Below are positions 1,388-64,000 of a stretch of DNA of 64,000 nt, one piece after another. The notes under the pieces are model-generated. The model was not told where the DNA came from, ran no database searches, and was given only the letters and a program-made list of their open reading frames with translations. Within the stretch, counting starts at the first letter, position 1. Each line of letters opens with the position of its first letter. Source of the stretch: Streptococcus sp. oral taxon 431 (GTDB taxonomy: Bacteria > Bacillota > Bacilli > Lactobacillales > Streptococcaceae). Where the stretch lies: assembly GCF_001553685.1 (NCBI RefSeq), contig NZ_CP014264.1, positions 256,001 through 320,000 on the forward strand. Direction: 5' to 3'. The translations under genes were made by a program, and so were the position numbers.

Positions 1388-1447
1388 AAAGCAAGTGGGC
1401 TAGGCCTCGTAACCACTTACGGGTCAAAAGTGACCACTTGCTTTTTT
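1388..1447 (+). terminator. Long-loop terminator of the PAP2 gene, overlapping a LytTR direct repeat
   Basis: AAAGCAAGTGG (1388-1398) pairs with CCACTTGCTTT (1434-1444), followed by T to 1447. The 35-nt loop contains the first copy of the ACCACTTAC repeat, and the second copy forms part of the 3' arm. The AAGTGG of the left arm could pair with either repeat. Confidence 0.65.
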
Positions 1448-1500: not shown

Positions 1501-1947
1501 ATGAAGTTACGAATCGAGATTGATAGTGAATTAACTGAGACAGAGATTGTCATCAAGGCTGCAGCCCTGACAGATGAAATAGCTGACTTGCAACGACTCT
1601 TGCAAGAAACCAAGGCTCCTAGGTTGATTTTTTACAAGGGGACGGGTGAGTACTACTTAGACTTGTCAGAAATTCTCTTTTTTGAGACGGAAGGTAGCAA
1701 GATTTACGCTCATACCCAGAAAGAAGCCTATGAGGTTCGACTCAAGCTTTATGAGTTGGAGTCCATTCTCCCCCGCTATTTCAGTCGGGTATCCAAGTCG
1801 ACCATTGCTAATATTCGGCAAGTTTACTCGGTTGACAAGTCCTTTTCAGGGACAGGCACTATTTCCTTTTATCAGACCCACAAGGAGGTGCACGTGTCAC
1901 GGCACTACCAATCCCTCCTAAAAGAAAATCTAAGAAACATGAGGTAA
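1501..1947 (+). CDS. LytTR-domain DNA-binding regulator (LytTR regulatory system type)
   Basis: A 148-residue regulator with a short N-terminal part (about 1-45) and a C-terminal LytTR DNA-binding domain (about 50-146: YYLDLSEILFFETEGSKIYAH, FSRVSKSTIANI, VHVSRHY). It has no receiver domain, so it is not a phosphorylated response regulator; it resembles HdrR/BrsR-type regulators of S. mutans, which are held inactive by a membrane protein encoded next door. I chose ATG 1501 because AAAGGAGATAGG precedes it closely; an upstream in-frame ATG at 1483 has no ribosome site and sits at the predicted transcription start. The following gene, 4 bp downstream, encodes the likely membrane partner. A direct repeat at its own promoter suggests autoregulation. 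Confidence 0.88.
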   Translation: MKLRIEIDSELTETEIVIKAAALTDEIADLQRLLQETKAPRLIFYKGTGEYYLDLSEILFFETEGSKIYAHTQKEAYEVRLKLYELESILPRYFSRVSKSTIANIRQVYSVDKSFSGTGTISFYQTHKEVHVSRHYQSLLKENLRNMR

Positions 1948-1951
1948 GAAC

Positions 1952-2626
1952 ATGAAAAAGAAAGCATTTGGTATTGTGTTGCTAGTATTGGCAGCTTTAG
2001 TGTTGTTACAGGGGAATTTTGGAATCCCTTCTCTGGGAGGGCATATCTGGCCTTTGATTGGTATTGGATTTTTTGCCTATCAATCAATTGAAGCTTTGCT
2101 TCGTCGTCATCTGACATCAGCCACTTTTACAGCCCTAGTGGCCCTCATGATTGCTAATCATTTTTATGACATTTTACCGATTCCCAATCAGTCATTGTTC
2201 TGGGCAAGTATTTTAATCGTAATGGGTGTCAGCGCACTCACTCATTCTAACAGAACTTGGAATGGAAAAAAATGGTGGTATGACGGTGAAAAGACCATTC
2301 TGACAGACAAGGAAGTCGCTTTTGGGGCGGGTACATTTTACAAGCAAGACCAAGAATTGGTAGAAGACGAGTTTGAAGTCGGATTTGGGAATGCCAAAAT
2401 CTATTATGACAATGCAGAGATGTTAGGTGATTTTGCTACTCTGAATATCGAAGTCGGTTTTGGGAATGCAGTTATCTACGTGCCTCAACACTGGAGAGTA
2501 GATCTAAAGGTAGAGACTTTTTGTGGAGCAGCCAAGGCAGATGCCCCTGTAGCCCCAACCAGCAAAACTTTGATTATCCGTGGAGATGTAGCTTTTGGGA
2601 AACTAGGAGTTGTTTACGTTAAATAA
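1952..2626 (+). CDS. LiaF-like membrane protein, likely partner of the LytTR regulator
   Basis: A 224-residue protein with about four N-terminal membrane helices (roughly 4-22, 28-45, 55-70, 82-99), the LiaF-type transmembrane module, and a cytoplasmic C-terminal half with repeated GFGNA-type strands (VGFGNAKIYYDN, VGFGNAVIYV, VAFGKLGVVYV), the YvqF/LiaF C-terminal beta domain. LiaF proteins are negative regulators of envelope-stress signalling. Here the gene lies 4 bp behind a stand-alone LytTR regulator instead of a LiaRS pair, which suggests it sequesters or senses for that regulator. That role is inference from gene order. No terminator is visible before the rpmB promoter. Confidence 0.83.
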   Translation: MKKKAFGIVLLVLAALVLLQGNFGIPSLGGHIWPLIGIGFFAYQSIEALLRRHLTSATFTALVALMIANHFYDILPIPNQSLFWASILIVMGVSALTHSNRTWNGKKWWYDGEKTILTDKEVAFGAGTFYKQDQELVEDEFEVGFGNAKIYYDNAEMLGDFATLNIEVGFGNAVIYVPQHWRVDLKVETFCGAAKADAPVAPTSKTLIIRGDVAFGKLGVVYVK

Positions 2627-39415: not shown

Positions 39416-41917
39416 ATGAGTTTTTACAATCATAAAGAAATCGAGCCTAAGTGGCAAAAATACTGGGCTGACAATCACACGTTTAAGACAGGAACAGACG
39501 CTTCAAAACCGAAGTTTTATGCATTGGACATGTTCCCTTATCCATCTGGAGCAGGTCTGCACGTAGGGCACCCAGAAGGCTATACAGCGACCGATATCCT
39601 CAGCCGTTTCAAACGTGCCCAAGGCTACAACGTCCTTCACCCAATGGGGTGGGATGCTTTTGGTTTGCCTGCAGAGCAATATGCTATGGATACAGGGAAT
39701 GACCCAGCGGAATTTACGGCTGAAAACATTGCTAACTTCAAACGCCAAATCAATGCGCTTGGATTCTCTTACGACTGGGATCGTGAAGTCAACACAACAG
39801 ATCCAAACTATTACAAATGGACACAATGGATCTTCACCAAGCTTTACGAAAAAGGATTGGCCTATGAAGCGGAAGTGCCAGTAAACTGGGTTGAGGAACT
39901 AGGAACAGCTATTGCCAACGAAGAAGTTCTTCCAGATGGAACATCTGAGCGTGGTGGCTATCCAGTTGTCCGCAAACCAATGCGCCAATGGATGCTCAAA
40001 ATCACTGCCTATGCGGAGCGCTTGCTGACTGACTTGGATGACCTTGACTGGCCAGAGTCTATCAAGGACATGCAACGCAACTGGATTGGTAAATCAACTG
40101 GTGCCAATGTCACTTTCAAGGTGAAAGGAACTGACAAAGAATTCACCGTCTTTACCACTCGCCCTGATACCCTTTTTGGTGCGACTTTCACCGTTCTGGC
40201 TCCTGAGCATGACTTGGTAGCTGCCATCACAAGTCCTGAACAAGCTGAGGCTGTGGCTGATTACAAACACCAAGCTAGCCTTAAATCAGACTTGGCTCGT
40301 ACAGACCTTGCCAAGGAAAAAACAGGGGTTTGGACTGGTGCTTATGCAATCAACCCTGTCAACGGTAAAGAAATTCCAATCTGGATTGCCGACTACGTTC
40401 TTGCTAGCTACGGTACAGGTGCAGTTATGGCCGTACCAGCCCACGACCAACGTGACTGGGAATTTGCCAAACAATTTGACCTTCCAATCGTCGAAGTACT
40501 TGAAGGAGGTAATGTTGAAGAAGCTGCCTACACAGAGGATGGCCTTCACGTTAATTCAGACTTCCTAGATGGACTCAACAAAGAAGACGCTATTGCCAAG
40601 ATTGTGGCTTGGTTGGAAGAAAAAGGCTGTGGACAAGAGAAGGTTACCTACCGTCTCCGCGACTGGCTCTTTAGCCGTCAACGTTACTGGGGTGAACCAA
40701 TTCCAATCATTCATTGGGAAGATGGAACTTCAACAGCCGTTCCAGAAAGTGAACTCCCACTTGTCTTGCCGGTAACCAAGGACATCCGCCCTTCAGGTAC
40801 TGGTGAAAGCCCACTGGCCAATTTGACAGACTGGCTGGAAGTGACTCGTGAAGATGGTGTTAAAGGTCGTCGTGAGACCAACACCATGCCACAATGGGCT
40901 GGTTCAAGCTGGTACTACCTTCGCTATATCGACCCACACAACACAGAGAAATTGGCTGATGAGGACCTCCTCAAGCAATGGTTGCCAGTGGATATCTATG
41001 TGGGTGGTGCGGAGCATGCCGTTCTTCACTTGCTTTATGCTCGTTTCTGGCACAAATTCCTCTATGACCTCGGTGTTGTTCCAACTAAGGAGCCATTCCA
41101 AAAACTCTTTAACCAAGGAATGATCTTGGGAACAAGCTACCGTGACCACCGTGGCGCACTTGTGGCAACTGACAAGGTTGAAAAACGTGACGGTTCCTTC
41201 TTCCATGTGGAAACAGGGGAAGAGTTGGAGCAAGCACCAGCCAAGATGTCTAAATCCCTCAAGAACGTTGTCAACCCAGACGATGTGGTGGAACAATACG
41301 GTGCGGATACCCTTCGTGTCTATGAAATGTTTATGGGACCACTCGATGCTTCCATCGCTTGGTCTGAAGAAGGATTGGAAGGAAGCCGTAAATTTCTTGA
41401 CCGTGTTTACCGTTTGATTACAAGTAAAGAAATTGTTGCGGAAAACAATGGCGCTCTTGACAAGGTTTACAACGAAACCGTTAAATCTGTTACAGAGCAA
41501 ATCGAGTCTATGAAATTCAACACAGCCATCGCCCAACTCATGGTCTTTGTCAACGCAGCTAACAAGGAAGACAAACTCTATGTAGACTACGCCAAAGGCT
41601 TTATCCAATTGATCGCACCATTTGCACCTCACTTGGCAGAAGAGCTCTGGCAAACCGTCGCAGCAACAGGTGAGTCTATCTCTTACGTAGCTTGGCCAAC
41701 ATGGGACGAAAGCAAATTGGTTGAAGACGAAGTCGAAATCGTCGTTCAAATCAAAGGAAAAGTCCGTGCTAAACTCATGGTCGCTAAAGATCTATCACGC
41801 GAAGAGCTGCAAGAAGTAGCTCTGGCTGATGACAAAGTCAAAGCAGAGATCGAAGGTAAAGAAATTGTGAAAGTGATTAGTGTACCTAACAAGCTTGTAA
41901 ATATCGTAACGAAATAA
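39416..41917 (+). CDS. leuS: Leucyl-tRNA synthetase
   Basis: An 833-residue class I synthetase for tRNA-Leu. HIGH-type motif [15 protein letters not shown] (about 42-56), the CP1 editing domain with its threonine-rich [21 protein letters not shown] and a C-terminal domain are intact; length fits bacterial LeuRS. RBS GGAGAGAC precedes ATG 39416. Monocistronic with own promoter and a strong terminator at 41927-41956. Unlike valS it has no T-box leader in this window. Confidence 0.98.
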
Positions 41918-42027: not shown

Positions 42028-42720
42028 ATGCCAGTAAATGAATACGGTCAGATGATTGGTGAACCTGTAGATGATACACCTGGAGTTTTGCCTTCACTTG
42101 TTCGGATAGAAGGGCGATATACGATTATAGAAGCTCTATCGGTGGAAAAGCATGCAGAGGATTTGCTGGCTGTCTATGGCCCAGATAGTCCTCGTGAGAT
42201 GTGGACCTATCTCTTTCAACCACCAGTAGAGAATCTCGAAGAATTAATCGTAGCTTTGAAGCAGATGATTGAGCGCAAGGATCGCTTCTATTATACGATT
42301 ATCGATAAAGTGACTGGAAAGGCGTTGGGGACTTTTTCTCTCATGCGTATTGACCAAGCCAATCGCACCATTGAAGTTGGCGCAGTGACCTTTTCTCCGG
42401 CTCTCAAACAGACCAAGATGGGAACAGAATCTCACTATTTGCTAGCTCGTTATGTTTTTGAAGAACTCAACTATCGTCGCTATGAGTGGAAGTGCGACGC
42501 CCTCAATCTTCCATCTAGAAAAGCAGCAGAACGTTTGGGATTTGTCTATGAAGGGACCTTCCGCCAAGCTGTTATCTATAAAGGTCGCACCAGAGATACG
42601 GATTGGTTGTCTATGATCGATAAGGACTGGCCAAAGGTTAAAGCACGTTTTGAAGCGTGGTTAAAATCTGAGAATTTTGATGAAGAAGGCCATCAGTTGA
42701 AATCTCTTAGAGAATGTTAG
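42028..42720 (+). CDS. GNAT acetyltransferase (RimJ/RimL-like)
   Basis: A 230-residue acetyltransferase of the RimJ/RimL group. The N-terminal part (NEYGQMIGEPVDDTPG) is followed by the GNAT core: ALGTFSLMRIDQANRTIEVGAVTFSPALKQTKMGTES with the acetyl-CoA loop, and the C-terminal YEWKCDALNLPSRKAAERLGFVYEGTFRQ. Similar proteins are called N-acetyltransferases of unknown substrate. RBS AAGGAG precedes ATG 42028. It is followed after 11 bp by a second GNAT gene, and the operator-like inverted repeat upstream suggests specific regulation. Confidence 0.9.
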   Translation: MPVNEYGQMIGEPVDDTPGVLPSLVRIEGRYTIIEALSVEKHAEDLLAVYGPDSPREMWTYLFQPPVENLEELIVALKQMIERKDRFYYTIIDKVTGKALGTFSLMRIDQANRTIEVGAVTFSPALKQTKMGTESHYLLARYVFEELNYRRYEWKCDALNLPSRKAAERLGFVYEGTFRQAVIYKGRTRDTDWLSMIDKDWPKVKARFEAWLKSENFDEEGHQLKSLREC

Positions 42721-42731
42721 AAAGGTTTGCT

Positions 42732-43154
42732 ATGATTAAGATTACAAAAGAATCCTCTGTTTCAATTGATGACGTTTTACATCTCTATCAGGCAGTTGGT
42801 TGGACAAACTATACCAATCAGCCACAGATGTTGGAGCAGGCCTTGTCTCATTCGCTAGCGACTTATCTTGCCCGTGATGGTGAGGAAATCGTTGGTTTAG
42901 TGCGTCTGGTTGGAGACGGTTTTTCATCCGTTTTTGTCCAGGATTTGATTGTTTTGCCTAGCTATCAGCGCCAAGGAATTGGTAGTAACTTGATGAAACA
43001 AGCCTTAGCTGACTATAAGGATGCCTACCAAATACAACTAGCGACTGAACAGACAGAAAAAAACTTGGGTTTTTACCGTTCTCTGGGGTTTGAAACCTTA
43101 TCTACTTATGATTGTACAGGAATGATTTGGGTGGATCGAAAAAACTTACAATAA
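42732..43154 (+). CDS. GNAT acetyltransferase, second of the pair
   Basis: A 140-residue GNAT domain protein: LARDGEEIVGLVRLVGDG, VQDLIVLPSYQRQGIGSNLMKQAL (Q/RxxGxG/A acetyl-CoA loop) and LGFYRSLGFETLS are all in place. ATG 42732 follows AAAGG; an in-frame ATG at 42714 lies inside the previous gene. Cotranscribed with the larger GNAT. Substrate unknown; small GNATs of this form often acetylate amino or polyamine groups. The first csRNA gene begins directly downstream. Confidence 0.88.
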   Translation: MIKITKESSVSIDDVLHLYQAVGWTNYTNQPQMLEQALSHSLATYLARDGEEIVGLVRLVGDGFSSVFVQDLIVLPSYQRQGIGSNLMKQALADYKDAYQIQLATEQTEKNLGFYRSLGFETLSTYDCTGMIWVDRKNLQ

Positions 43155-43163
43155 TTCTTTTAT

Positions 43164-43196
43164 CTTAAGTTAACTTTAAGTTTACTCATGTATCAT
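43164..43196 (+). promoter_or_regulatory. CiaR-box promoter of csRNA copy 1
   Basis: CTTAAG (43164-43169), N5, TTTAAG (43175-43180), 10 bp, -10 TATCAT (43191-43196). This repeat-N5-repeat placed 10 bp before the -10 is the layout known for CiaR-activated promoters in S. pneumoniae. Confidence 0.82.
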
Positions 43197-43301
43197 GTAA
43201 TCATTAAGTAAAGACCTCCTAACTTTATTTAATAGAAATCCTAAACTTTTCTTTTTCATAATAATCTCCCTAAAGAAGCCACCAAATCAGGTGGCTTTTT
43301 T
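43165..43301 (+). repeat. Direct repeat (csRNA unit), left copy
   Basis: Identical to 45145-45281 except one base in the -10 (TATCAT versus TATTAT). The two copies are in the same orientation and bracket the ABC exporter operon at 43431-45148. Confidence 0.93.
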
Positions 43302-43302
43302 T
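43203..43302 (+). ncRNA. Cia-dependent small RNA, copy 1
   Basis: Predicted ~100-nt RNA starting about 7 nt after the -10 and ending at terminator AAGCCACC / GGTGGCTT plus T7. It contains two anti-Shine-Dalgarno segments, ACCTCCT and ATCTCCCT, and a CAT placed so that TCATAATAATCTCCCT would pair with an SD-AUG region. It belongs to the csRNA (ccn) family known in pneumococcus to repress translation of competence and other genes under CiaRH. 137 bp including the promoter are repeated almost identically at 45145-45281. Confidence 0.87.
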
Positions 43303-43335: not shown

Positions 43336-43404
43336 ACCACATAATCATCCATTTCGACCACATAGCACCAAACTATATTTTTTCTTTTTCCTTTTTGTTA
43401 AACT
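43336..43404 (+). promoter_or_regulatory. LytTR-type direct repeat plus extended -10 promoter of the ABC exporter
   Basis: ACCACATAA (43336-43344), 12-nt spacer, ACCACATAG (43357-43365), then TGT-TAAACT with the -10 hexamer at 43399-43404, starting 34 bp after the second repeat. Motif, spacing and distance to -10 equal those at the promoter of the LytTR regulator (1412-1480). Confidence 0.72.
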
Positions 43405-43430: not shown

Positions 43431-44294
43431 ATGATTTTACAAGCAAAAGGCCTCACTAAGAACTATGGAGACCATACAGCAGTAAAAGATATAAATTTAG
43501 AGTTTAAAAAAGGAAGTTTTAACGCAATCTTAGGACCTAATGGGGCTGGTAAATCGACCACGATTTCAATGTTAATCGGACTTAAACGAGCAACTAATGG
43601 TCAAATCATCTATGCGCCCAATACTAGGATTGGAGTTGTTTTTCAAGCAAGTGTATTGGATGAAAAGTTGACGGTCAAAGAAAACCTAGCCATTCGTGCC
43701 CAGCAGTATAAGGGGATTAAAGGTGGTCGTGTGGAAGATTTAATCAATCAACTAGGGTTGACTGCTTTTCAGAAACAACTTTATGGAACTTTATCAGGAG
43801 GACAGAAACGTCGAGTTGACATTGCTCGGGCTCTCCTATCCAATCCCGATATTTTATTTCTAGATGAGCCTACGACTGGACTAGATATTCAGACTCGCAA
43901 ATCCATTTGGGATTTATTGTATCGTCTACAAAGAGATGAAGGGATGACTATTATCTTAACGACTCATTATCTGGATGAAGCAGATGAGGCAGATCAACTT
44001 TATATTATAGATCATGGAAAGGTTATTGCCCAAGGTTCTGCTGCTGAAATTAAAAGTGAGTACGCTTCCAATCTTTTAAAAATTTGTTTTAAAGACAAGC
44101 AGGTGGAGAAATTCTTACCTAAAAATATGCCTGTGGAAAAGGAAAATGAGTTTGAGTATAGTCTTTATCCTAAGAGCCAATTGGAAGCTATTGATTATTT
44201 GACCCAAGTTCGTGAGAAGATTGCTAGCTTTGAATTTCGTCCAGGAACTATGGATGATGCCTTCATAGCCCTTACAGGAAGAGAGGTGCGCTAA
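43431..44294 (+). CDS. ABC exporter ATP-binding protein
   Basis: A 287-residue ATPase of the drug/antimicrobial exporter type: Walker A GPNGAGKST, signature LSGGQKRR, Walker B ILFLDEPTTGLD, H-loop TTHYLDEADE, then a ~70-residue C-terminal extension ending PGTMDDAFIALTGREVR, usual for DrrA/NatA-like subunits. AAAGGAGGAAGG gives a strong ribosome site. It overlaps its permease by one base. The promoter carries a LytTR-type direct repeat, so the exporter may be the target of the LytTR/LiaF-like pair at 1.5 kb. Substrate unknown; bacteriocin or antimicrobial export/immunity is a reasonable guess. Confidence 0.93.
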   Translation: MILQAKGLTKNYGDHTAVKDINLEFKKGSFNAILGPNGAGKSTTISMLIGLKRATNGQIIYAPNTRIGVVFQASVLDEKLTVKENLAIRAQQYKGIKGGRVEDLINQLGLTAFQKQLYGTLSGGQKRRVDIARALLSNPDILFLDEPTTGLDIQTRKSIWDLLYRLQRDEGMTIILTTHYLDEADEADQLYIIDHGKVIAQGSAAEIKSEYASNLLKICFKDKQVEKFLPKNMPVEKENEFEYSLYPKSQLEAIDYLTQVREKIASFEFRPGTMDDAFIALTGREVR

Positions 44295-45148
44295 TGTTAG
44301 CCTTATTAAAACGTGATTTTTTGTTGTATTTTCGTAATCGTTCAGGAGTCTTTTTCTCATTACTGGGAGCTTTGATTTCCTTTCTACTCTATATCATTTT
44401 TTTGCAGAAAAATTTGATGGATGCCTGGTCCCAACTTCCTGATAATAAGAGCCTTTTAAATAACTGGCTGATGGGTGGAACCTTGGCTGTGACTGGGATT
44501 ACAACCAGTTTTACAGCTTTGACCCAGATGGTACAAGACCGTGAAAATCAAGTGGATCAGGATCTCTTTTTGACAGACTTAGGGAGCTGGGGCTTGCAAC
44601 TGTCTTATCTTATTAGTAGCCTTATCATTTCATTTGTTATGCAAGCCTTTATGCTTATTGTTATGAGCCTTTATTTTCAAGAAATTCCAGCTATGAGTAA
44701 GCTATTTGAAATAAGTTTAATCATGCTGCTAAGTAGTCTCCTTTCAACATTGGTAAATGTACTCTTGATTTATCATTTCCAGTCAGTAGATAGTCTGGGT
44801 AAATTGGCTACCATTGTAGGTACAGCTTCAGGATTTTTAGTAGGAACTTATGTACCAATGGGAATTCTTCCTAACTTCGCTCAAGTTCTCATGAAGTGCA
44901 CACCGGCTACCTATCTTGCTTCTCTCTATAGACAGGTCTTAATGAAGGAGCAATTAGAAACTACATTTATGGGGAATAGTAGCTTATTAGAAGAGTTTCA
45001 AGAAAAATTAGGAATCCGGCTTAACTGGCAGAACCTTTTAACAAAGGAAGAAACATACTTAATAGTGGTGAGTATCTGCCTCCTAACTTTTCTGCTTTGG
45101 CTGGTAGTAGTTAAAATCTCTAGCAAAAAAATAAAAATTATAGGTTAA
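44294..45148 (+). CDS. ABC-2 type exporter permease
   Basis: A 284-residue ABC-2 membrane subunit with about six helices (around 20-40, 57-75, 97-120, 135-160, 168-190, 255-275) and a larger extracellular segment near 215-245. It overlaps the ATPase gene (TAATG). Its stop codon (45146-45148) lies inside the first CiaR half-site of csRNA copy 2, so the exporter gene directly abuts the small RNA promoter. Confidence 0.92.
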   Translation: MLALLKRDFLLYFRNRSGVFFSLLGALISFLLYIIFLQKNLMDAWSQLPDNKSLLNNWLMGGTLAVTGITTSFTALTQMVQDRENQVDQDLFLTDLGSWGLQLSYLISSLIISFVMQAFMLIVMSLYFQEIPAMSKLFEISLIMLLSSLLSTLVNVLLIYHFQSVDSLGKLATIVGTASGFLVGTYVPMGILPNFAQVLMKCTPATYLASLYRQVLMKEQLETTFMGNSSLLEEFQEKLGIRLNWQNLLTKEETYLIVVSICLLTFLLWLVVVKISSKKIKIIG

Positions 45149-45176
45149 GTTAACTTTAAGTTTACTCATGTATTAT
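45144..45176 (+). promoter_or_regulatory. CiaR-box promoter of csRNA copy 2
   Basis: GTTAAG (45144-45149), N5, TTTAAG (45155-45160), 10 bp, -10 TATTAT (45171-45176). The first half-site differs by one base from copy 1 and overlaps the permease stop. Confidence 0.8.
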
Positions 45177-45281
45177 GTAATCATTAAGTAAAGACCTCCT
45201 AACTTTATTTAATAGAAATCCTAAACTTTTCTTTTTCATAATAATCTCCCTAAAGAAGCCACCAAATCAGGTGGCTTTTTT
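45145..45281 (+). repeat. Direct repeat (csRNA unit), right copy
   Basis: Right-hand copy of the 137-bp unit at 43165-43301; offset 1,980 bp, one substitution. Confidence 0.93.
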
Positions 45282-45282
45282 G
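45183..45282 (+). ncRNA. Cia-dependent small RNA, copy 2
   Basis: Same predicted RNA as copy 1, ending at AAGCCACC / GGTGGCTT with T6. Because the transcribed parts are identical, the two genes should make the same RNA; only the -10 and the first CiaR half-site differ, so strength could differ. The ruvB promoter follows within about 20 bp of the terminator. Confidence 0.87.
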
Positions 45283-46894: not shown

Positions 46895-46900
46895 TATCTC

Positions 46901-46992
46901 AGAAGTTAAGAAGACCTTAACTTTAACTCCTAAAACTTTTTCATAATAATCTCCCTATAAAAATTAAGTCGCCCAATCAGGCGACTTTTTTT
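46901..46992 (+). ncRNA. Cia-dependent small RNA, copy 3 (diverged)
   Basis: Predicted ~92-nt RNA. It shares with copies 1 and 2 a central run CTTTTTCATAATAATCTCCC and the ACTCCT/ACCTCCT-type anti-SD element, but has a different 5' stem (AAGTTAAG / CTTAACTT) and a different terminator stem (AAGTCGCC / GGCGACTT, T7). It is thus a paralogous csRNA with a separate sequence history from the other two. Confidence 0.85.
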
Positions 46993-47200: not shown

Positions 47201-47253
47201 TATAATATAATGACCAAAACATTAGTCCATATCATAAATTTGTGATTTTTTTT
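47177..47253 (+). promoter_or_regulatory. Adhesin promoter and terminator-like leader hairpin
   Basis: TAGACA (47177-47182), 18-bp spacer ending TGC, TATAAT (47201-47206). About 20 nt into the ~150-nt leader lies a near-palindrome of 16 bases (ATCATAAATTTGTGAT, 47231-47246) running into eight T: a weak intrinsic-terminator shape. Confidence 0.6.
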
Positions 47254-47361
47254 GCTAATAAAGATTATAAAATAAGAAAAAACCGAATTATAGACGTTTT
47301 TTCAGCAAAAAGACAAACCAGACTGAGTTTTATAAAAAAACAGAATCCAAGGAGAATAAAA

Positions 47362-50300
47362 ATGTTTTTTAGACGTCAGGAAGGACGATATAGAGAAACA
47401 GACCGAGTAACGAGGTATAAATTGATCAAGTCAGGGAAACACTGGCTTCGAGCATCTACCTCTCTTTTTGGTTTGTTCAAGGTTCTTCGTGGTGGTATTG
47501 ATACAGCTCAAGTTACAACAGAAGTTGTTGAAGATCGTGTTTCAACATCCCTAACTGGGCTTGATATCCTCAAGGGGATAGCTGCTGCGGGAACTGTCAT
47601 AGGTGGAGGGATTGCAACCCAATCTCATGTCTATGCTAATGAACAGACTGCTGTTGAAAAAGTAGTTGAAGGTAAGGAAGTTCTTGCTAATGCAGATCAA
47701 GCTACCTTAGGAACAGTTGGGCAAGATGATCAAGAAACACCAAGTTCAGATACGACCTCTCAGTCATTAAGTGAGAGTGAGTCAGTCTCAGCGAGTGAAT
47801 CTGCATCCGTATCAGCAAGCACAAGTGCGTCTGAGTCAGCTTCAACCAGTGCGTCTGTATCAGCAAGCACTTCAGCTTCAGAGTCGGCAAGTACCTCTGC
47901 ATCTGAGTCAGCATCAACGAGCGCTTCGGCCTCAGCGAGTACAAGTACATCGGCTTCAACAAGTATCTCTGCTTCATCTACTGTGGTAGGATCACAAACA
48001 GCTGCGAAAGAAACTGTAACCGATACAAGCACGCCAACTGATAGAACAGGTGAATCATCAGAAACAGCATCGACAACTTTAGAGGGCAAGGTAACCTTTG
48101 CTAACCAAATATCTAAAGTAGAGAAAGTTGCAGATTCAACGACCAACTTATCGGCTTCTGCAACGGATCTTGTAGCCACAACTGCTGCTACAGAAGCAAG
48201 TGCTAAGAAGGTCGAAGAAGATCGTAAGAAACTAGCTAAACTCTCAGCTGAGATGGGTGAATATCTAGCTAAAGCTGCTGGTTTGCCAAATGCCGATTCA
48301 GCTATCACTAAGGTGAATGCTGCTGTAGTAGAGATTGAAAAAGCACTTGCAGATCCGACAGCTGATTTGACAGCAGTCGTGCAAAAGGCAACTTCAGCTC
48401 GTAACTCAATCGCCAATGCTGTTTTACGTGCAAATTCAGGTCAACGTGATAGCCGTAATGGACAGGCAATGTTCGAGGGGGTCGGTTTAAGAGGTTTTGT
48501 TAACCAACAGAATTTAGGACAAGTTACTGATTCTGCAATTGTATCTAGTAATTTTAATTCTAAGACACGTGAAGTTGTTTGGCATATTAATATGACTTCG
48601 CGTTCGCCCTTGAACTATGCAGGTATTATTGCTAAGGTTGATGCCAATACTACTATTACTAGAGTAACATTCAATGGCCAAGAGATGGAGAAACGCAAGG
48701 ACTCCAATCATGAATATGCTTTTACTTATAGGCATGATCAAAATAGAAATCTTGAAGGTACAGTTCTTGTTTATGCCACAGTAAGTGATAGTTCTAAGAC
48801 GGCTACAATTCAAGCTCAAGTTGGGACAAGTAGTCAACCGATTGATGGGGATTCTAGGTCTGGTAGTTACTCTAGAGCTAACAGCAGTAGAGTTACTACA
48901 GGTCCTATAGAAAATAAACCTGTAAACCCAGGGAATTCTCGGCAAACTGATAACCCTCCTACGATTGAAATGCCATCACGTATTGAAGTATTTAATGATG
49001 ACGCAATAAACTACAATATCATTTTTCGTGATGACAAAGGTTTGCGAGATTTTTGGGAAAATAAAAAAGATAATGCCATTATTACAGGCTTGATGGGGAA
49101 AAATTTCCCAGGTGACTATGGTTTCGCCACGGTTAAAACAAATGATAAAGGTCAAGTAGTTGGATGGGTTTTTGATAATAAAACATGGACTACAAGAGTT
49201 TATGGAACTGTAGGTAGAACGGGTAACACTTGGAATCCTATGGTTCCTGGGGAGTACTATGTCGAATACGGTGCAAGTGATAATCCAAAGATTCAGTGGG
49301 ATCGACAAACTACTACATTTGTAATCAGAGGATTTAACGAACGTCAAGATCCGGTAAGTGGTGATACTGTTACAGTTAACAATCCGTCATCTTTGAGCGA
49401 GACTGAGAAAGCTCAAATCCTTGCAAACTTCAAGAGCAAAAATGCTGCTATCCTCTCAAGTACTGACTACGTAAAAGGTTCTGAAGGTGGTAAAGAAATT
49501 ACAGTGTCTAACACTGGTGAAATCACCATTACCTACCGTGACAACACTGTGGATGTTGTCCAAGCAAGTGTAAGAGCGGAAACGGAAGTACCTGTACCTG
49601 CTGTTACAGTGACACGTGGTGGTCAGACTATCCCAGCTACTCCAAGCCCAGTTGGTGGTCGAGGAGATGAACATATCGTCTATGCTGGTGACGACTTCAC
49701 CGTTAAATTTACAGCGACTGATAATAGTGGTAAGTTAAAAGAGTTTAAGATTGTTTCAATGGCAGATGGGACTCGACCAGGATTGAGAGATAACTTCTTT
49801 GAAGATCCTAAATATGGTACAGGAACTGTGGATCTCTTGACAGGAGATATCACTGCTACACCAGAAAATCCTGCGACTATAACCGTCAATGCTCATATGA
49901 AGGATGATCTGGAGTGGAAATCAGGCAATACCTGGCAACGGAATGCAGTTGCAACTGACCAAGTAGGAAATGTAAACGGAACTGTAGGAACTGGTAATGT
50001 CCGTATCACCCAAGGGCAACTGAAAGACCGTCTTGCAGTGACTAATCCAGAACTCACACCGGTTGCAGATAAGAGTAACTTGACTGAACCTGAAAAGACA
50101 GCTGTCAAGAATGCCATCTACGCTAAGAATAATCAGACAACTCACCGTATCAAAGACATTAAAGTGTCAAATGATGGGACAGCAACGATTATTTATAAGG
50201 ATTTAACGGAAAATGTCCTACCACAGTCAGTTACAGTTAATGAACGACCGAAATTGGTAATTCCTTATGATAATGCTACAACTAAGGAAATATATCTATA

Positions 50301-53300
50301 CCGCGGGGAAGAAGTTAATGTAACCTTTGGTGCAACCGATGATTCTGGCAAGATTTCTTCATTGAAGTTTGAGTCGCAATATTATACTGAGGATAATGCA
50401 AACGGGAACAACTACGCAGGATATACTGGGATCAATCGTTCAAATCCAATCACAAGTTTGACAGACCAAGCAAATGCAAATATTACTATTACAGGAAGAC
50501 TAGATAAAAGTTTCCCGGCGGGCAAATCATTTGAACGCTATTTGATGGCGACGGATGACCGTGGCGTTACAGATAGTGTTCATGCGAAGAATGGTGTTGG
50601 TGACAATGGTTATGTAAAATTTGTAATCAAAAATCAGACGGATAAATATACTGCTGTAGCGAAGGTTCCGACTGTCTATACATATGTCGGTGAGACTGCT
50701 AGCGATTTATCAAATGCTGCCAACTTTGTTCAGCTTGAAGGTGGTAAACAATTACCGCCAGGTGCAACTGTTACTTGGAAGACACCAATTGACACAACTA
50801 ACTCTGGGGATAATAAAAAAGCTGTGGCGACAGTCACATACTCAGATGGTTCTACAGATGATGTTACTGTCACTTATAGTACCATGACTACAATCGCATC
50901 AAAAGCTCCAATCAATGATATCCAAGGAACGACTCCTCACAACGGAAATGGTTCAAACTGGCTTGACTATGTCTATAAATCGGGGAATGACTGGTTCCCA
51001 AGTGGTTCTCGACAAACATGGACAGATGAAAATGGAACTCGCTTGTCAGATGCTCCTATCACTACGACAGAAGCTGGACAACAGCGTTTCAAATTAACCT
51101 TTACATATCCTAAAGGTCGTCTTGGTGAGACAGATAGTTCGAAATTACTTAGCAAGACTGTAGATGTTATTCATAATGTATATAAGTTTGAGTCTAACCG
51201 TTCTTATATCTTTACTCAAAACAAAACAGATGATCCTAATTATCAACGTGTAGCTGCAAATCCGAAAGATTCTATCACCAAGGTGACAGGAAGCCCTGAT
51301 TATAATGTAGATAAAACTAATTTTACTTGGATTGATGGAGCACCAGATCTTTCTAGAGTTGGACGATTTACAAAGGATGTGGAAGTTGAATTGCCTGTAG
51401 ATGGTACAGGTGTGCGTGTGAAACAACGTGTCCCAATCAAATACGCAGTAAATCCGCAAGCTCCTACTATCTCTGCAGATTCTATCAATGAAACAGGTGG
51501 ATTGCCAAATCGTTCGATTGTCGTTACGAATGTAACGCCTGGAGCAGTTGTTACGCTCACATTGGCAGGTCATACATTTACCAAGACAGCAAAAGACAAC
51601 GAATCAAGCGTTACCTTTGAACCTGCTGATCTGAAAAAAGCATACGACGGTAACAACGGTCTTCTTCCAACAGGTAATGTAACAGCTAAATCTACAGTAG
51701 ATGATCTGAATTCAGAAGTAACGACAGGAACAATCACTCCAGAACGTGTAAAACCAACGATTACCTATACTGTTACAGTAAATGGTAAAGAACCTAAGAA
51801 AGATAGTAATGGTCGATACCTGTTCTATGCTGGGGACAATATCCAGATTACTTATACAGGTAAAGATAATAGTGGTAAATTGGTCACACTTAAGGTCTCT
51901 GGTAATAGAAAAGACTTGACGGACTTCTTCGAAAATAGACCTGAATGGGGAACTGGTCCAATCACGAACATTATCAATACCTTAACGAATGATGACCAAA
52001 CCACTTTCACAATAAATGCAGTGCCAAATAAAGATCTTGCTTGGAGTTCAGGGAATCGCTGGGGACGTTGGCTAACGGCTACAGATCCGAGTGGGAATAC
52101 CGTTGATGTAGGAGAAATTAGCATTCAGCAAGATCAGTTGCAGAACTTGTTTAAGAAGCCTGCTATTGATGTGACTGAGGTCAAAGATAAAAATCACTTA
52201 ACGGATACTGATAAGGAAAAAGTTCGCGAAGAAATCAGAAAAGCTCACGATAAGGTTGTTCCAAACGGTCGCGATCGTATTTCTAGCATTGACGTAAGTG
52301 AGGACGGTATTGCAACAGTCTACTATAAAGATAATGCTAAAGTGGCATCTGGTAGTCAACCATATCCACCAACTGTCTATGGTCAAGATGAAACTGTTTC
52401 AGATAAGAAATATCGTTCTGAATCTGCTTCGGCTTCAACCAGTGCATCAGAGTCAGCGTCAACCAGTGCGAGCCAGTCAGCAAGCACATCAGCGTCTGAG
52501 TCAGCATCAACAAGTGCAAGCCAGTCAGCCAGCACATCAGCATCTGAATCAGCGTCAACAAGTGCTAGTCAGTCAGCAAGCACATCAGCATCTGAATCAG
52601 CGTCAACAAGTGCGAGCCAATCAGCAAGCACAAGCGCGTCTGAGTCAGCATCAACAAGTGCAAGCCAGTCAGCCAGCACATCAGCATCTGAATCAGCGTC
52701 AACCAGTGCAAGCCAGTCAGCAAGCACATCGGCTTCAGAGTCAGCGTCAACAAGTGCTAGTCAATCAGCAAGCACAAGCGCGTCTGAATCAGCAAGTACA
52801 AGTGCGAGCCAATCAGCAAGCACATCGGCATCTGAATCAGCGTCAACCAGTGCGAGCCAATCAGCAAGCACATCGGCTTCAGAGTCAGCGTCAACCAGTG
52901 CAAGCCAGTCAGCAAGCACAAGCGCGTCTGAATCAGCATCAACAAGTGCAAGCCAGTCAGCAAGCACATCGGCATCAGAGTCAGCGTCAACAAGTGCGAG
53001 CCAATCAGCAAGCACAAGCGCGTCTGAATCAGCATCAACAAGTGCGAGCCAATCAGCAAGCACAAGCGCGAGCCAATCAGCAAGCACAAGTGCTAGTCAA
53101 TCAGCAAGCACAAGCGCGTCTGAATCAGCGTCAACAAGTGCAAGCCAATCAGCAAGCACATCGGCATCTGAATCAGCGTCAACAAGTGCTAGTCAATCAG
53201 CAAGCACATCGGCATCTGAATCAGCATCAACAAGTGCGAGCCAATCAGCAAGCACAAGCGCGAGCCAATCAGCAAGCACAAGTGCTAGTCAATCAGCAAG

Positions 53301-56300
53301 CACAAGCGCGTCTGAATCAGCGTCAACAAGTGCAAGCCAATCAGCAAGCACATCGGCATCTGAATCAGCGTCAACAAGTGCTAGTCAATCAGCAAGCACA
53401 TCGGCATCTGAATCAGCGTCAACCAGTGCAAGCCAATCAGCAAGCACAAGCGCGTCTGAATCAGCATCAACCAGTGCAAGCCAGTCAGCAAGCACATCAG
53501 CATCTGAATCAGCGTCAACCAGTGCGAGCCAATCAGCAAGCACATCAGCATCTGAATCAGCGTCAACCAGTGCTAGTCAGTCAGCAAGCACATCAGCATC
53601 TGAATCAGCGTCAACAAGTGCGAGCCAATCAGCAAGCACAAGCGCGTCTGAGTCAGCATCAACAAGTGCAAGCCAATCAGCAAGCACATCGGCATCTGAA
53701 TCAGCGTCAACCAGTGCGAGCCAATCAGCAAGCACATCGGCTTCAGAGTCAGCGTCAACCAGTGCAAGCCAGTCAGCAAGCACAAGCGCGTCTGAATCAG
53801 CGTCAACAAGTGCTAGTCAATCAGCAAGCACATCGGCTTCAGAGTCAGCATCAACAAGTGCGAGCCAATCAGCAAGCACAAGCGCGTCTGAATCAGCATC
53901 AACAAGTGCGAGCCAATCAGCAAGCACAAGCGCGAGCCAATCAGCAAGCACAAGTGCTAGTCAATCAGCAAGCACAAGCGCGTCTGAATCAGCGTCAACA
54001 AGTGCAAGCCAATCAGCAAGCACATCGGCATCTGAATCAGCAAGTACAAGTGCGAGCCAATCAGCAAGCACATCGGCATCTGAATCAGCGTCAACCAGTG
54101 CGAGCCAATCAGCAAGCACATCGGCTTCAGAGTCAGCGTCAACCAGTGCAAGCCAGTCAGCAAGCACAAGCGCGTCTGAGTCAGCATCAACAAGTGCAAG
54201 CCAGTCAGCCAGCACATCAGCATCTGAATCAGCGTCAACAAGTGCAAGCCAGTCAGCAAGCACATCAGCATCTGAATCAGCGTCAACAAGTGCAAGCCAG
54301 TCAGCAAGCACAAGCGCGTCTGAATCAGCAAGTACAAGTGCGAGCCAATCAGCAAGCACAAGCGCGTCTGAATCAGCATCAACAAGTGCAAGCCAGTCAG
54401 CAAGCACATCGGCTTCTGAGTCAGCGTCAACAAGTGCAAGCCAGTCAGCAAGCACATCAGCATCTGAATCAGCGTCAACAAGTGCGAGCCAATCAGCAAG
54501 CACATCGGCCTCTGAGTCAGCAAGTACAAGTGCAAGCCAATCAGCAAGCACATCGGCTTCAGAGTCAGCGTCAACAAGTGCTAGTCAATCAGCAAGCACA
54601 AGCGCATCTGAATCAGCATCAACAAGTGCAAGCCAGTCAGCAAGCACATCGGCATCAGAGTCAGCGTCAACAAGTGCGAGCCAATCAGCAAGCACAAGTG
54701 CTAGTCAATCAGCAAGCACAAGCGCGTCTGAATCAGCGTCAACAAGTGCAAGCCAGTCAGCAAGCACAAGCGCGAGCCAATCAGCAAGCACATCGGCATC
54801 AGAGTCAGCGTCAACAAGTGCAAGCCAGTCAGCAAGCACAAGCGCATCTGAATCAGCATCAACAAGTGCAAGCCAGTCAGCAAGCACATCGGCATCAGAG
54901 TCAGCGTCAACAAGTGCGAGCCAATCAGCAAGCACATCGGCATCAGAGTCAGCGTCAACAAGTGCGAGCCAATCAGCAAGCACATCGGCTTCAGAATCAG
55001 CGTCAACAAGTGCGAGCCAATCAGCAAGCACATCAGCATCTGAATCAGCGTCAACAAGTGCTAGTCAATCAGCAAGCACATCGGCATCTGAATCAGCGTC
55101 AACAAGTGCTAGTCAATCAGCAAGCACATCGGCATCTGAATCAGCGTCAACAAGTGCAAGCCAATCAGCAAGCACATCGGCATCAGAGTCAGCGTCAACA
55201 AGTGCAAGCCAGTCAGCAAGCACATCGGCTTCAGAGTCAGCGTCAACAAGTGCGAGCCAATCAGCAAGCACAAGCGCGTCTGAGTCAGCATCAACAAGTG
55301 CGAGCCAATCAGCAAGCACATCGGCTTCAGAGTCAGCGTCAACAAGTGCGAGCCAATCAGCAAGCACATCAGCATCTGAATCAGCAAGTACCAGTGCAAG
55401 CCAATCAGCAAGCACATCGGCATCTGAATCAGCGTCAACAAGTGCTAGTCAATCAGCAAGCACATCGGCATCTGAATCAGCGTCAACAAGTGCAAGCCAA
55501 TCAGCAAGCACATCGGCTTCAGAGTCAGCGTCAACAAGTGCAAGCCAGTCAGCAAGCACATCGGCTTCAGAGTCAGCGTCAACCAGTGCGAGCCAATCAG
55601 CAAGCACAAGCGCATCTGAATCAGCGTCAACAAGTGCGAGCCAATCAGCAAGCACATCAGCATCTGAATCAGCGTCAACCAGTGCAAGCCAATCAGCAAG
55701 CACATCAGCATCTGAATCAGCAAGTACAAGTGCTAGTCAATCAGCAAGCACAAGCGCGTCTGAATCAGCATCAACAAGTGCAAGCCAGTCAGCAAGCACA
55801 TCGGCCTCTGAGTCAGCAAGTACAAGTGCTAGTCAATCAGCAAGCACAAGCGCGTCTGAATCAGCATCAACAAGTGCAAGCCAGTCAGCAAGCACATCAG
55901 CATCTGAATCAGCGTCAACAAGTGCGAGCCAATCAGCAAGCACATCAGCATCTGAATCAGCGTCAACCAGTGCTAGTCAGTCAGCAAGCACATCAGCATC
56001 TGAATCAGCATCAACAAGTGCAAGCCAGTCAGCAAGCACAAGCGCGTCTGAGTCAGCATCAACAAGTGCAAGCCAGTCAGCAAGCACATCAGCATCTGAA
56101 TCAGCATCAACAAGTGCGAGCCAATCAGCAAGCACAAGTGCGAGCCAATCAGCAAGCACATCGGCTTCAGAGTCAGCGTCAACAAGTGCGAGCCAATCAG
56201 CAAGCACAAGCGCGTCTGAGTCAGCATCAACAAGTGCAAGCCAGTCAGCAAGCACAAGCGCGTCTGAATCAGCAAGTACAAGTGCTAGTCAATCAGCAAG

Positions 56301-58428
56301 CGCAAGCGCATCTGAATCAGCGTCAACAAGTGCGAGCCAATCAGCAAGCACATCGGCCTCTGAGTCAGCAAGTACAAGTGCTAGTCAATCAGCAAGCACA
56401 AGCGCGTCTGAATCAGCATCAACAAGTGCAAGCCAGTCAGCAAGCACATCAGCATCTGAATCAGCATCAACAAGTGCGAGCCAATCAGCAAGCACAAGCG
56501 CATCTGAATCAGCGTCAACAAGTGCGAGCCAATCAGCAAGCACAAGCGCGTCTGAATCAGCATCAACAAGTGCAAGCCAGTCAGCAAGCACAAGCGCGTC
56601 GGCTTCAGCAAGTACATCAGCTTCAGAGTCAGCGTCAACAAGTGCAAGCCAGTCAGCAAGCACATCGGCTTCAGAGTCAGCGTCAACAAGTGCGAGCCAA
56701 TCAGCAAGCACAAGCGCGTCTGAGTCAGCATCAACAAGTGCAAGCCAGTCAGCAAGCACAAGCGCATCTGAATCAGCGTCAACAAGTGCGAGCCAATCAG
56801 CAAGCACATCGGCCTCTGAGTCAGCAAGTACAAGTGCTAGTCAATCAGCAAGCACAAGCGCGTCTGAATCAGCATCAACCAGTGCAAGCCAGTCAGCAAG
56901 CACATCAGCATCTGAATCAGCATCAACCAGTGCGAGCCAATCAGCAAGCACAAGCGCGTCTGAATCAGCAAGTACAAGTGCGAGCCAATCAGCAAGCACA
57001 TCGGCATCAGAGTCAGCGTCAACAAGTGCGAGCCAATCAGCAAGCACATCGGCTTCAGAGTCAGCGTCAACAAGTGCGAGCCAATCAGCAAGCACATCGG
57101 CATCAGAGTCAGCGTCAACAAGTGCGAGCCAATCAGCAAGCACATCGGCTTCAGAGTCAGCAAGTACAAGTGCGAGCCAATCAGCAAGCACATCGGCTTC
57201 AGAGTCAGCAAGCACAAGCGCGTCTGAGTCAGCATCAACAAGTGCAAGCCAGTCAGCAAGCACAAGCGCGTCTGAATCAGCAAGTACAAGTGCGAGCCAA
57301 TCAGCAAGCACAAGCGCGTCTGAATCAGCAAGTACAAGTGCGAGCCAATCAGCAAGCACATCGGCATCAGAGTCAGCGTCAACCAGTGCGAGCCAATCAG
57401 CAAGCACAAGCGCATCTGAATCAGCGTCAACAAGTGCGAGCCAGTCAGCAAGTACATCGGCTTCTGAGTCAGCGTCAACAAGTGCAAGCCAGTCAGCAAG
57501 CACATCGGCTTCAGAGTCAGCGTCAACAAGTGCAAGCCAATCAGCAAGCACAAGCGCATCTGAATCAGCATCAACAAGTGCGAGCCAATCAGCAAGCACA
57601 AGCGCGTCTGAATCAGCGTCAACAAGTGCAAGCCAATCAGCAAGCACAAGCGCATCTGAATCAGCGTCAACAAGTGCGAGCCAATCAGCAAGCACAAGCG
57701 CGTCTGAGTCAGCATCAACAAGTGCGAGCCAATCAGCAAGCACAAGCGCATCTGAATCAGCATCAACCAGTGCAAGCCAGTCAGCAAGCACATCAGCATC
57801 TGAATCAGCATCAACCAGTGCGAGCCAATCAGCAAGCACATCGGCTTCAGAGTCAGCGTCAACAAGTGCTAGTCAATCAGCAAGCACAAGCGCGTCTGAA
57901 TCAGCAAGTACAAGTGCGAGCCAATCAGCAAGCACATCGGCTTCAGAATCAGCGTCAACCAGTGCAAGCCAGTCAGCAAGCACATCGGCCTCTGAATCAG
58001 CGTCAACAAGTGCGAGCCAATCAGCAAGCACATCGGCTTCAGAGTCAGCGTCAACAAGTGCGAGCCAATCAGCAAGCACATCGGCTTCAGAATCAGCATC
58101 AACAAGTGCAAGCCAGTCAGCAAGCACATCGGCTTCAGAGTCAGCGTCAACCAGTGCGAGCCAATCAGCAAGCACATCGGCTTCAGAGTCAGCGTCAACA
58201 AGTGCGAGCCAATCAGCAAGCACATCAGCATCTGAATCAGCGTCAACCAGTGCAAGCCAGTCAGCAAGCACATCGGCTTCAGAGTCAGCGTCAACCAGTG
58301 CTAGTCAATCAGCAAGCACAAGCGCGTCTGAATCAGCATCAACAAGTGCAAGCCAGTCAGCAAGCACATCGGCCTCTGAGTCAGCAAGTACAAGTGCTAG
58401 TCAATCAGCAAGCACAAGCGCGTCTTAA
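47362..58428 (+). CDS. Giant serine-rich repeat adhesin, interrupted by an in-frame stop in the repeat region
   Basis: The frame encodes 3,688 residues before TAA at 58426. ATG 47362 follows AAGGAGAAT. Residues 1-92 form the long accessory-Sec signal peptide with Y19-K20 ... S24-G-K-H-W28 (KxYKxGKxW) and a likely cut after VYA92. SRR1 spans about 132-207. The non-repeat region (208-1685) holds a helical segment (280-360), a beta domain (368-493), and a series of Ig-like modules alternating with 'LTexEK ... ITYxD' modules. From 1686 on it is SRR2: [16 protein letters not shown] repeated. Such proteins are O-glycosylated, exported by SecA2/SecY2 and bind host glycans, keratin or platelets. The LPxTG anchor is not reached; as read, the product would be secreted without a wall anchor. 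Confidence 0.9.
47755..47986 (+). repeat. SRR1, first serine-rich repeat block of the adhesin
   Basis: About 75 codons of SxSAS-type repeats directly behind the signal peptide region, imperfect and codon-diverse, typical of the short N-terminal SRR1 of this protein family. Confidence 0.88.
48463..52350 (+). other. Ligand-binding (non-repeat) region of the adhesin
   Basis: Residues about 368-1663. After a beta domain (368-493) come Ig-like modules with a shared 'YAGDxxxxxxxxxDNSGKL' strand pattern at about 750-873 and 1464-1583 and a related one at about 960-1090, each followed or preceded by a short module of helix plus hairpin ([18 protein letters not shown] at ~670; [16 protein letters not shown] at ~897; [16 protein letters not shown] at ~1613). 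A Rib-like module ([22 protein letters not shown]) lies near 1096-1176. I do not recognise a Siglec-type or keratin-binding domain with certainty, so the ligand is unknown. Confidence 0.6.
58426..58428 (+). other. Premature in-frame TAA in SRR2
   Basis: The local sequence reads GCGTCT-TAA-TCAGCATC where dozens of sister units read GCGTCT-GAA-TCAGCATC (for example 58321-58340). One G-to-T difference turns Glu into stop without any frame change. Confidence 0.92.
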
Positions 58429-63252: not shown

Positions 63253-64000
63253 AGTGCAAGCCAGTCAGCAAGCACAAGCGCATCTGAATCAGCATCAACA
63301 AGTGCTAGTCAATCAGCAAGCACATCAGCATCTGAGTCAGCAAGTACAAGTGCTAGTCAATCAGCAAGCACAAGCGCGTCTGAGTCAGCATCAACAAGTG
63401 CAAGCCAGTCAGCAAGCACATCAGCATCTGAATCAGCATCAACAAGTGCAAGTCAATCAGCAAGCACATCAGCATCTGAGTCAGCGTCAACAAGTGCGTC
63501 AGTCTCAGCAAGCACATCAGCTTCTGAATCTGCATCAACAAGTGCCTCAGCTTCAGCAAGCACATCGGCTTCTGAGTCTGCATCAACATCAGCATCAGCC
63601 TCAGCAAGCACATCAGCATCAGAGTCAGCGTCAACAAGTGCGTCAGCGTCAGCAAGCACAAGTGCCTCAGCTTCAGCAAGCACAAGTGCCTCAGCTTCAG
63701 CAAGCACATCAGCATCTGAATCAGCGTCAACAAGTGCGTCAGCGTCAGCAAGCACATCGGCTTCTGAGTCAGCATCAACATCAGCTTCAGCCTCAGCAAG
63801 CACAAGTGCCTCAGCTTCAGCAAGCACATCGGCTTCTGAGTCTGCATCAACATCAGCTTCAGCCTCAGCAAGCACATCAGCTTCAGCCTCAGCAAGCACA
63901 AGTGCGTCTGAATCAGCGTCAACAAGTGCGTCAGCGTCAGCAAGCACAAGTGCCTCAGCTTCAGCAAGCACATCAGCATCTGAATCAGCGTCAACAAGTG

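Follow-up and report, generated by a model that had tools for sequence, protein, structure and literature searches.

Comparison of binding sites suggests that the ABC exporter in the window (the whole stretch of 64,000 nucleotides analysed here, from Streptococcus sp. oral taxon 431) is more likely to be regulated by LRS2, a LytTR Regulatory System (LRS) encoded elsewhere in the genome, than by LRS1, the system that lies in the same window; the arrangement overall is of a known kind. The initial annotation had named the LytTR protein of LRS1 as the driver of the exporter, a target assignment that, judging from the sequences, is probably wrong. We consider it fairly likely that the exporter moved, lost the regulator that stands beside it in relatives (LRS3) and came under LRS2, by which it would be activated in trans. 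Sites, gene order, phylogeny and domains are read directly from the sequences, and it is from these that we infer binding and activation by LRS2, its signal and the substrate of the exporter. No report linking LRS2 to the exporter was found in the literature searched. The relevant features of the window are as follows.

1412..1441, + strand, LRS1 direct repeats ACCACTTAC-N12-ACCACTTGC, autoregulatory type; from pattern searches, the repeats matching those of spr1731/spr1730 in Table 3 of PMC6193735
1472..1480, + strand, LRS1 extended -10 (TGG TATAGT), 33 bases past repeat 2
1501..1947, + strand, LRS1 LytTR regulator, 148 aa; Pfam LytTR PF04397, 82.7 bits, sole family
1952..2626, + strand, LRS1 membrane partner, LiaF-TM, 224 aa; PF22570, 33.8 bits, cut-off 27
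39416..41917, + strand, leucyl-tRNA synthetase gene (leuS); Pfam editing domain, 225.6 bits; left neighbour of the exporter operon in four-gene relatives
42028..43154, + strand, two GNAT acetyltransferase genes; Pfam and synteny; downstream of the exporter operon in four-gene relatives
43203..43301, + strand, csRNA copy upstream of the exporter; Rfam RF02379, 99.1 bits
43336..43365, + strand, exporter direct repeats ACCACATAA-N12-ACCACATAG, LRS2-type; from pattern searches, site matrices and position 6
43396..43404, + strand, exporter extended -10 (TGT TAAACT), 33 bases past repeat 2
43431..44294, + strand, exporter ATPase, ABC_tran, 287 aa; Pfam PF00005, 114.6 bits
44294..45148, + strand, exporter permease, ABC2_membrane, 284 aa; Pfam PF01061, 45.3 bits
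45183..45281, + strand, csRNA copy downstream of the exporter; RF02379, 99.1 bits
45315..46313, + strand, ruvB, right flank of the exporter; Pfam RuvB_N, 268.3 bits, and synteny

The domain searches bear out the stand-alone LytTR protein with a LiaF-like membrane partner described in the initial annotation (PF04397 and PF22570, scores as listed). A LytTR gene with such a partner is a LytTR Regulatory System of a kind already catalogued for Streptococcus pneumoniae. The start of the LRS1 LytTR gene at 1501 was picked for the preceding AGGAG, and there is also an in-frame ATG at 1483. Against the LiaF C-terminal model the partner scores 19.4 bits, below the cut-off of 57, and DUF2154 is by name absent among the models reported for it. 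No receiver domain was found in the LytTR proteins of LRS1 and LRS2, where PF04397 is the only family over cut-off, and in both systems a membrane protein gene follows directly downstream, LiaF-TM in LRS1 and DUF3021 (105.3 bits) in LRS2. The S. pneumoniae LRS spr1731/spr1730 resembles LRS1 in its LytTR gene and membrane partner, and in having ACCACTTAC-12-ACCACTTGC before an extended -10 (PMC6193735, Table 3); the LRS1 promoter is of the autoregulatory type, as had been noted before, and its arrangement is that of a known LRS. The entry for spr1731/spr1730 in that paper gives the operon's own promoter only, without an exporter or other target.

The two repeat pairs with their N12 spacing are both present as first described, ACCACTTAC-N12-ACCACTTGC before the LytTR gene (1412-1441) and ACCACATAA-N12-ACCACATAG before the exporter (43336-43365). 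The pattern ACCACWTRN-N12-ACCACWTRN matches twice in the window, compared to a mean of 0.00 in 100 shuffles, and a genome-wide search, as the annotation had suggested, gave 2 matches in 2.18 Mb, both at these places; read backwards, the pattern had 0 matches in the whole genome. When mismatches were allowed in a search for further targets, the one-mismatch matches checked (L055, L056, L058, L059) were all inside ORFs, and at two mismatches there were 33+40 matches as against 102+81 in the reversed control. ACCACWT-N14-ACCACWT occurs in 201 of 284 genomes of the genus, a figure that alone proves little since the reversed control also matches many genomes.

The placement 34 bp before the -10 also holds, the hexamer starting at base 34 after repeat 2 in both promoters, with 33 bases between (TATAGT at 1475-1480 for LRS1 and TAAACT at 43399-43404 for the exporter, each directly preceded by TGN). 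The same 33-base offset is found in exporter promoters with LRS3 (37/37), in promoters of a small LiaF-TM gene elsewhere in the genome (49/50), and, with automatic choice of the -10, in 36 of 53 LRS2 promoters, the other 17 not being 33; the automatic choice gave an offset of 32 in 33 of 67 LRS1 rows. The offset is common to several LRS promoter families and thus generic, it does not name the regulator, and the 34-bp geometry was rejected as an identifier for this reason. The exporter case thereby corrects the view that promoters of equal geometry must share a regulator.

To compare the sites we used loci taken as the best 30 per search, about 20 picked from distant rows, and pattern matches, which is not a random sample. 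The 68 LRS1 rows became 67 when a fragment in G242 was dropped (24 from a pattern search open to either A or T at position 6, 30 from the homology search and 13 picked), and the 54 LRS2 rows (4 pattern, 30 search, 20 picked) became 53, one having an identity below 40%. A permease match in 129 of 284 genomes was the pool behind the exporter rows, 63 by their ATPase, from which 13 unrelated ABC ATPases (28–29% identity) were dropped and 50 kept (4, 26 and 20); all 50 small LiaF-TM rows were kept (10, 23 and 17). Identical repeats within one genome were counted once, and the best repeat pair for each gene was chosen with a half-site profile in which A and T have equal weight at position 6.

Position 6 separates the families. 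It is T in both halves in 67/67 LRS1 rows, A in both halves in 47/53 LRS2 rows and A in one half only in the remaining 6, and A in both halves in 26 of the 50 small LiaF-TM rows, the other 24 being mixed; the T in one half of these 24 and of the 6 LRS2 sites indicates that T is tolerated. Exporters with an adjacent LRS3 LytTR gene have TT in 36 and TC in 1 of 37 rows, and exporters without it have AA in 13/13. Site matrices made from the distinct repeat pairs, which cover LRS1, LRS2 and LRS3 and so two of the five LytTR-domain proteins of the genome, were correct in leave-one-out for 18/18 LRS2, 9/10 LRS1 and 15/20 LRS3 pairs. All six errors were between LRS1 and LRS3, and 0/30 LRS1/LRS3 pairs were called LRS2. 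The window's exporter site scored -7.5 bits with LRS2, -19.9 with LRS1 and -21.9 with LRS3, the same in 11/13 genomes (-11.0, -18.3 and -22.6 in the other 2), and the 16/16 distinct small LiaF-TM pairs were also assigned to LRS2. A point against LRS2 is the last base of exporter half-site 1, an A where LRS2 sites usually have G (among the 18 distinct pairs, half 1 has G in 15 and A in 3).

These values do not support the earlier claim that the LRS1 LytTR protein drives the exporter. It is conceivable that this protein (1501-1947), once its LiaF-like partner lets go of it, is the direct activator of its own gene and of the exporter genes, as the likeness of the ACCAC repeat core, the spacing and the -10 offset would suggest, and the cross-regulation among LRS documented in S. 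mutans (PMC6193735) leaves room for it. We find this unlikely: the -10 offset is generic, position 6 is T in all LRS1 rows as against AA in all 13 exporter rows of the window's kind, and 12.4 bits favour LRS2 over LRS1 for the window's site. A further argument against LRS1 as driver is that the exporter of the relatives carries its own third regulator, LRS3. Another reading is that the exporter answers to LRS1 and LRS2 both, or to whichever LRS is active, as the output of a cross-regulating network. This has a parallel in S. mutans, where SMU_1070c/1069c affects all the other LRS operons (PMC6193735), but the site signature is one-sided towards LRS2, and we hold such a shared output to be quite unlikely. 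Whether a genome has LRS1 and LRS2 was rejected as a discriminator within the genus, since matches to both are listed for all 13 genomes that have the exporter without LRS3. Genomes listed with an orthologue of the small LiaF-TM gene also list LRS2 when compared by eye, except G066, which is 93% complete and has a best LRS2-query match of 1.5e-15; G140 has no LRS1 match among the matches listed.

LRS2, the system we prefer as regulator of the exporter, lies about 80 kb away, with its LytTR gene at genome 381486-381926 (minus strand; 145 aa as submitted) and the DUF3021 gene directly after it at 381031-381489 (minus). Its promoter repeats are GCCAGATAG-N12-ACCACATAG. The pattern RCCASATAR-N12-RCCASATAR occurs exactly in only 3 places of the genome, before the exporter, the LRS2 operon and the small LiaF-TM gene, and its reversed control gave 0 forward and 1 reverse matches. 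All three sites are outside ORFs longer than 100 aa, and the ORF starts are 95, 118 and 125 bases past the first base of the site, in the order just given. Six weaker matches with one or two mismatches (L272-L277) were all within ORFs. At two mismatches the counts, 5+4, are about those of the control, 4+4, which implies that only the exact matches are meaningful. Exact matches are present in 47/284 genomes, and by their letters those listed look like the exporter, LRS2 and small LiaF-TM classes. From their sequences, three promoters of this genome can be attributed to a single LRS; the exporter is among those preceded by LRS2-type direct repeats.

The genome has five LytTR-domain proteins, LRS1, LRS2 and three others. 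Two of these three lie side by side, and one has a receiver-type front and a kinase-like neighbour; they may be of the comE-like and blp-like kinds. At genome 522093-523128 (L087) the gene of a 112-aa LytTR-only protein is immediately followed by those of a receiver-LytTR regulator and a kinase-like protein.

The origin of the exporter can be followed in the relatives. In 37/37 rows their exporter is followed by a LytTR gene, LRS3, and in 28/37 this is followed by a DUF3021-like match above 60 bits. LRS3 is absent beside the exporter in 12/12 rows with enough sequence; in the thirteenth, G072, the contig ends 41 bases past the permease, too soon to show the neighbour. There is no LRS3 LytTR elsewhere among the five LytTR-domain proteins of the window's own genome, and the other genomes were checked at the neighbourhood. 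Among 26 named loci, at least two of which come from genomes also in the row set (G065, G069), 16 are of a four-gene kind with the order leuS, ATPase, permease, LytTR, DUF3021, GNAT, GNAT, then ruvB where the sequence reaches. The remaining 10 are of a two-gene kind, to which the window also belongs, with the order leuS, GNAT, GNAT, ATPase, permease, ruvB. Exceptions are L315, without the first GNAT, L312, which ends 41 bases past the permease, and L331, without leuS. The ten two-gene loci are six from S. infantis and one each from S. timonensis, HMSC074B11, HPH0090 and a record named S. pseudopneumoniae. S. infantis SK970 carries the four-gene form, so both forms of the exporter occur under one species name. 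The repeat sites have A in both halves in 10/10 two-gene loci and T in 13/13 four-gene loci having a site; the regular-expression search found none in 3/16 four-gene loci (L321, L331, L332). The LRS3 DUF3021 match is in two pieces at L319/L042 (SK970, G069), as if the inhibitor gene were broken, and the S. oralis loci L331 (2109-2207) and L332 (2114-2212) each have a match to the azaaromatic (yjdF) riboswitch some 0.9 kb upstream of the four-gene operon.

In the window the exporter is not co-encoded with a LytTR and a DUF3021 gene; it is followed by a csRNA and then ruvB. The best NCBIfam match of its ATPase is drrA, 223.5 bits, below the cut-off of 312.45. Two copies of the CiaR-dependent csRNAs (RF02379) flank the exporter, and the stretches that hold them, 43160-43302 and 45140-45282, are identical at 138/143 positions. 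csRNAs on both sides of the exporter were present in 3/3 two-gene loci searched, as compared to 0/5 four-gene loci searched. A third csRNA gene is found at 46900-46991, making three csRNAs around the exporter and ruvB.

In a FastTree phylogeny of the permease, from which G074 was dropped for the internal stop in its match, the loci that lack LRS3, 12 in number, group as a single clade with local support 1.0, and LRS3-bearing loci of the mitis/oralis type are its sister with support 0.991. The commonest sister site differs from the window site at 3/18 positions: position 6 of each half is T in the sister site and A in the window, and position 9 of half 2 is T and G, respectively. The promoters are otherwise alike. 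It could be argued that the exporter repeats are a decaying relic of the lost LRS3 control and bind nothing today, and the genome does lack an LRS3 LytTR protein. We think this very unlikely. Of the 22032 ways to change three bases of the sister site, a single one, that seen in the window, scores as high with LRS2 as the window site does, by a count made post hoc; decay would not be expected to single out the triple change with the best fit to LRS2. All 18 positions of the site are also unchanged in 11/13 genomes, with one position differing in the other 2, which is weak evidence because the exporter sequences are very close. The 13 exporter rows are near-identical and, as far as the tree shows, stem from one event, which makes n about 1.

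Taken together with the half-site changes, which turn the site into an LRS2-type one and make the exporter most likely LRS2-activated in trans, the following course of events can be proposed. The exporter pair 43431-45148 would be a former member of an operon of ABC ATPase, ABC permease, LytTR and DUF3021. Together with its promoter, the pair would have been relocated in an S. infantis-like lineage to a place between the GNAT genes and ruvB and between two csRNA copies, and the LytTR-DUF3021 pair would have been lost from the exporter. The T to A changes at position 6 of both halves and the T to G change at position 9 of half 2 would then have converted an LRS3-type site into an LRS2-type site. 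LRS2 (381031-381926, minus) would most likely activate the exporter once its DUF3021 inhibitor is relieved, and would drive three promoters, those of its own operon, the exporter and the 101-aa small LiaF-TM protein (1575326-1575628, minus). This would be a case, placed on a phylogeny, in which a gene pair left without the regulator of its operon acquired a site suited to a paralogous regulator, and it suggests that a few base changes can be enough for such switches to take on other targets.

The four-gene operon is similar to the S. mutans LRS SMU_433/434, with which ABC genes are likely co-transcribed (PMC6193735), and the repeats ACATCTTAT and ACCTCTTAT at the relatives' locus L238 are the pair printed for SMU_433 in the same paper. 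The window exporter differs from SMU_433/434 in lacking an adjacent LytTR-DUF3021 pair, in its location and in its A-type repeats. SMU_431, which encodes an ABC ATPase and precedes SMU_433 by two in the numbering, had a log2FC of -6.48 with sublethal chlorhexidine (PMC12501421); from the numbering and the SMU_433 repeats we infer that it is the LRS3 exporter ATPase.

Single-sequence PDB searches gave no match, and a six-sequence LRS LytTR profile gave a weak match to AgrA (E 0.002) from which an alignment was obtained. In AgrA, R198, N201 and S202 of the motif FFRCHNS are reported to touch DNA (PMC4227749). The counterparts of the motif are FSRVSKS in LRS1, FIQISQS in LRS2 and FIQISRH in LRS3, and the residue at the N201 position is Lys in 66/66 LRS1, Gln in 53/53 LRS2 and Arg/Lys in 37/37 LRS3 proteins. 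These residues fit the T-type sites of LRS1 and LRS3 and the A-type sites of LRS2, a correlation only, over three families which differ at many other positions also. A specificity code may be proposed, in which A or T at base 6 goes with Gln or Lys/Arg at the N201 equivalent.

The small LiaF-TM protein is a stand-alone protein of 101 aa (genome 1575326-1575628, minus) with the LRS2-type site 125 bases before it. It resembles the LiaF-TM domain alone, with 19.3 bits against the model, below the cut-off of 27, and over 94 aa it shares 36% identity with the LRS1 partner. The few source names among the best 120 of 1150 homologues were hypothetical or uncharacterized protein; no report of the protein, which has no name to search by, was found in the literature. 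In 16/20 loci fetched the gene is upstream of the LRS1 LytTR gene at a distance of 151–325 bases, both being on one strand, and in the other 4 there was no LRS1 LytTR in the stretch covered; each of the two genes has its own repeats before it. This position, together with the LRS2-type site, suggests a decoy inhibitor. As a tentative and rather doubtful idea, the LRS2-driven small protein might compete in the membrane with the LRS1 inhibitor, so that LRS2 activation would tune LRS1. LRS2 would then be a small trans-acting switch that captured the orphaned exporter through both half-site changes and whose second target in trans copies the LiaF-TM half of the LRS1 inhibitor, a relay from one LRS to the other by way of a decoy; we regard this wider reading as equally speculative.

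LRS are widespread, and in 2018 those of S. mutans were the only characterized examples (PMC6193735). HdrRM and BrsRM of S. mutans are like the present systems in having a LytTR protein with a membrane inhibitor, 9-bp repeats 12 apart and targets in trans (PMC6193735). They differ in that their targets are bacteriocin and competence genes, as opposed to an exporter and a LiaF-TM protein here, which are predicted only.

By gene order and annotation we map the pneumococcal SP_1914/SP_1915 and SPD_1716-SPD_1718 to LRS1, with SP_1914 as the partner. The mapping is based on a LytR/AlgR family regulator beside a membrane protein and on the adjoining PAP2 gene SPD_1719, a PAP2 gene also being found near LRS1 in the window (879-1382). 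In the lux strain Xen35, which carries the lux genes within SP_1914, expression of SP_1914/SP_1915 is strongly raised; moved to another place, the promoter before SP_1915 gave no light, and the authors credit the expression to a nearby promoter, the strain having other changes too (PMC5771582). For LRS1 this bears indirectly on inhibition by the membrane partner and on positive autoregulation. In bacteria attached to mesothelial cells, sp_1914 was 5.5-fold up by microarray (RT-qPCR 24.5, p = 0.06; PMC4643877), and a 1-bp deletion was sequenced in it in mutants lacking lipoteichoic acid (PMC5727136). In D39 without all five csRNAs, SPD_1716-SPD_1718 were up 2.4–2.6-fold, and 4.6–5.6-fold with zinc (PMC10659304), so that the csRNA and LRS circuits may touch. 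These observations, none of which concerns the exporter, hint that LRS1 answers to the state of the envelope, and there are other explanations for each of them.

The window also contains a very large repeat array of serine-rich type at 47242-63989, with units of 48, 96 and 144 bases from about 52444. A frame of 3728 aa stops inside the array (end 58428), and the repeats continue towards the end of the window.
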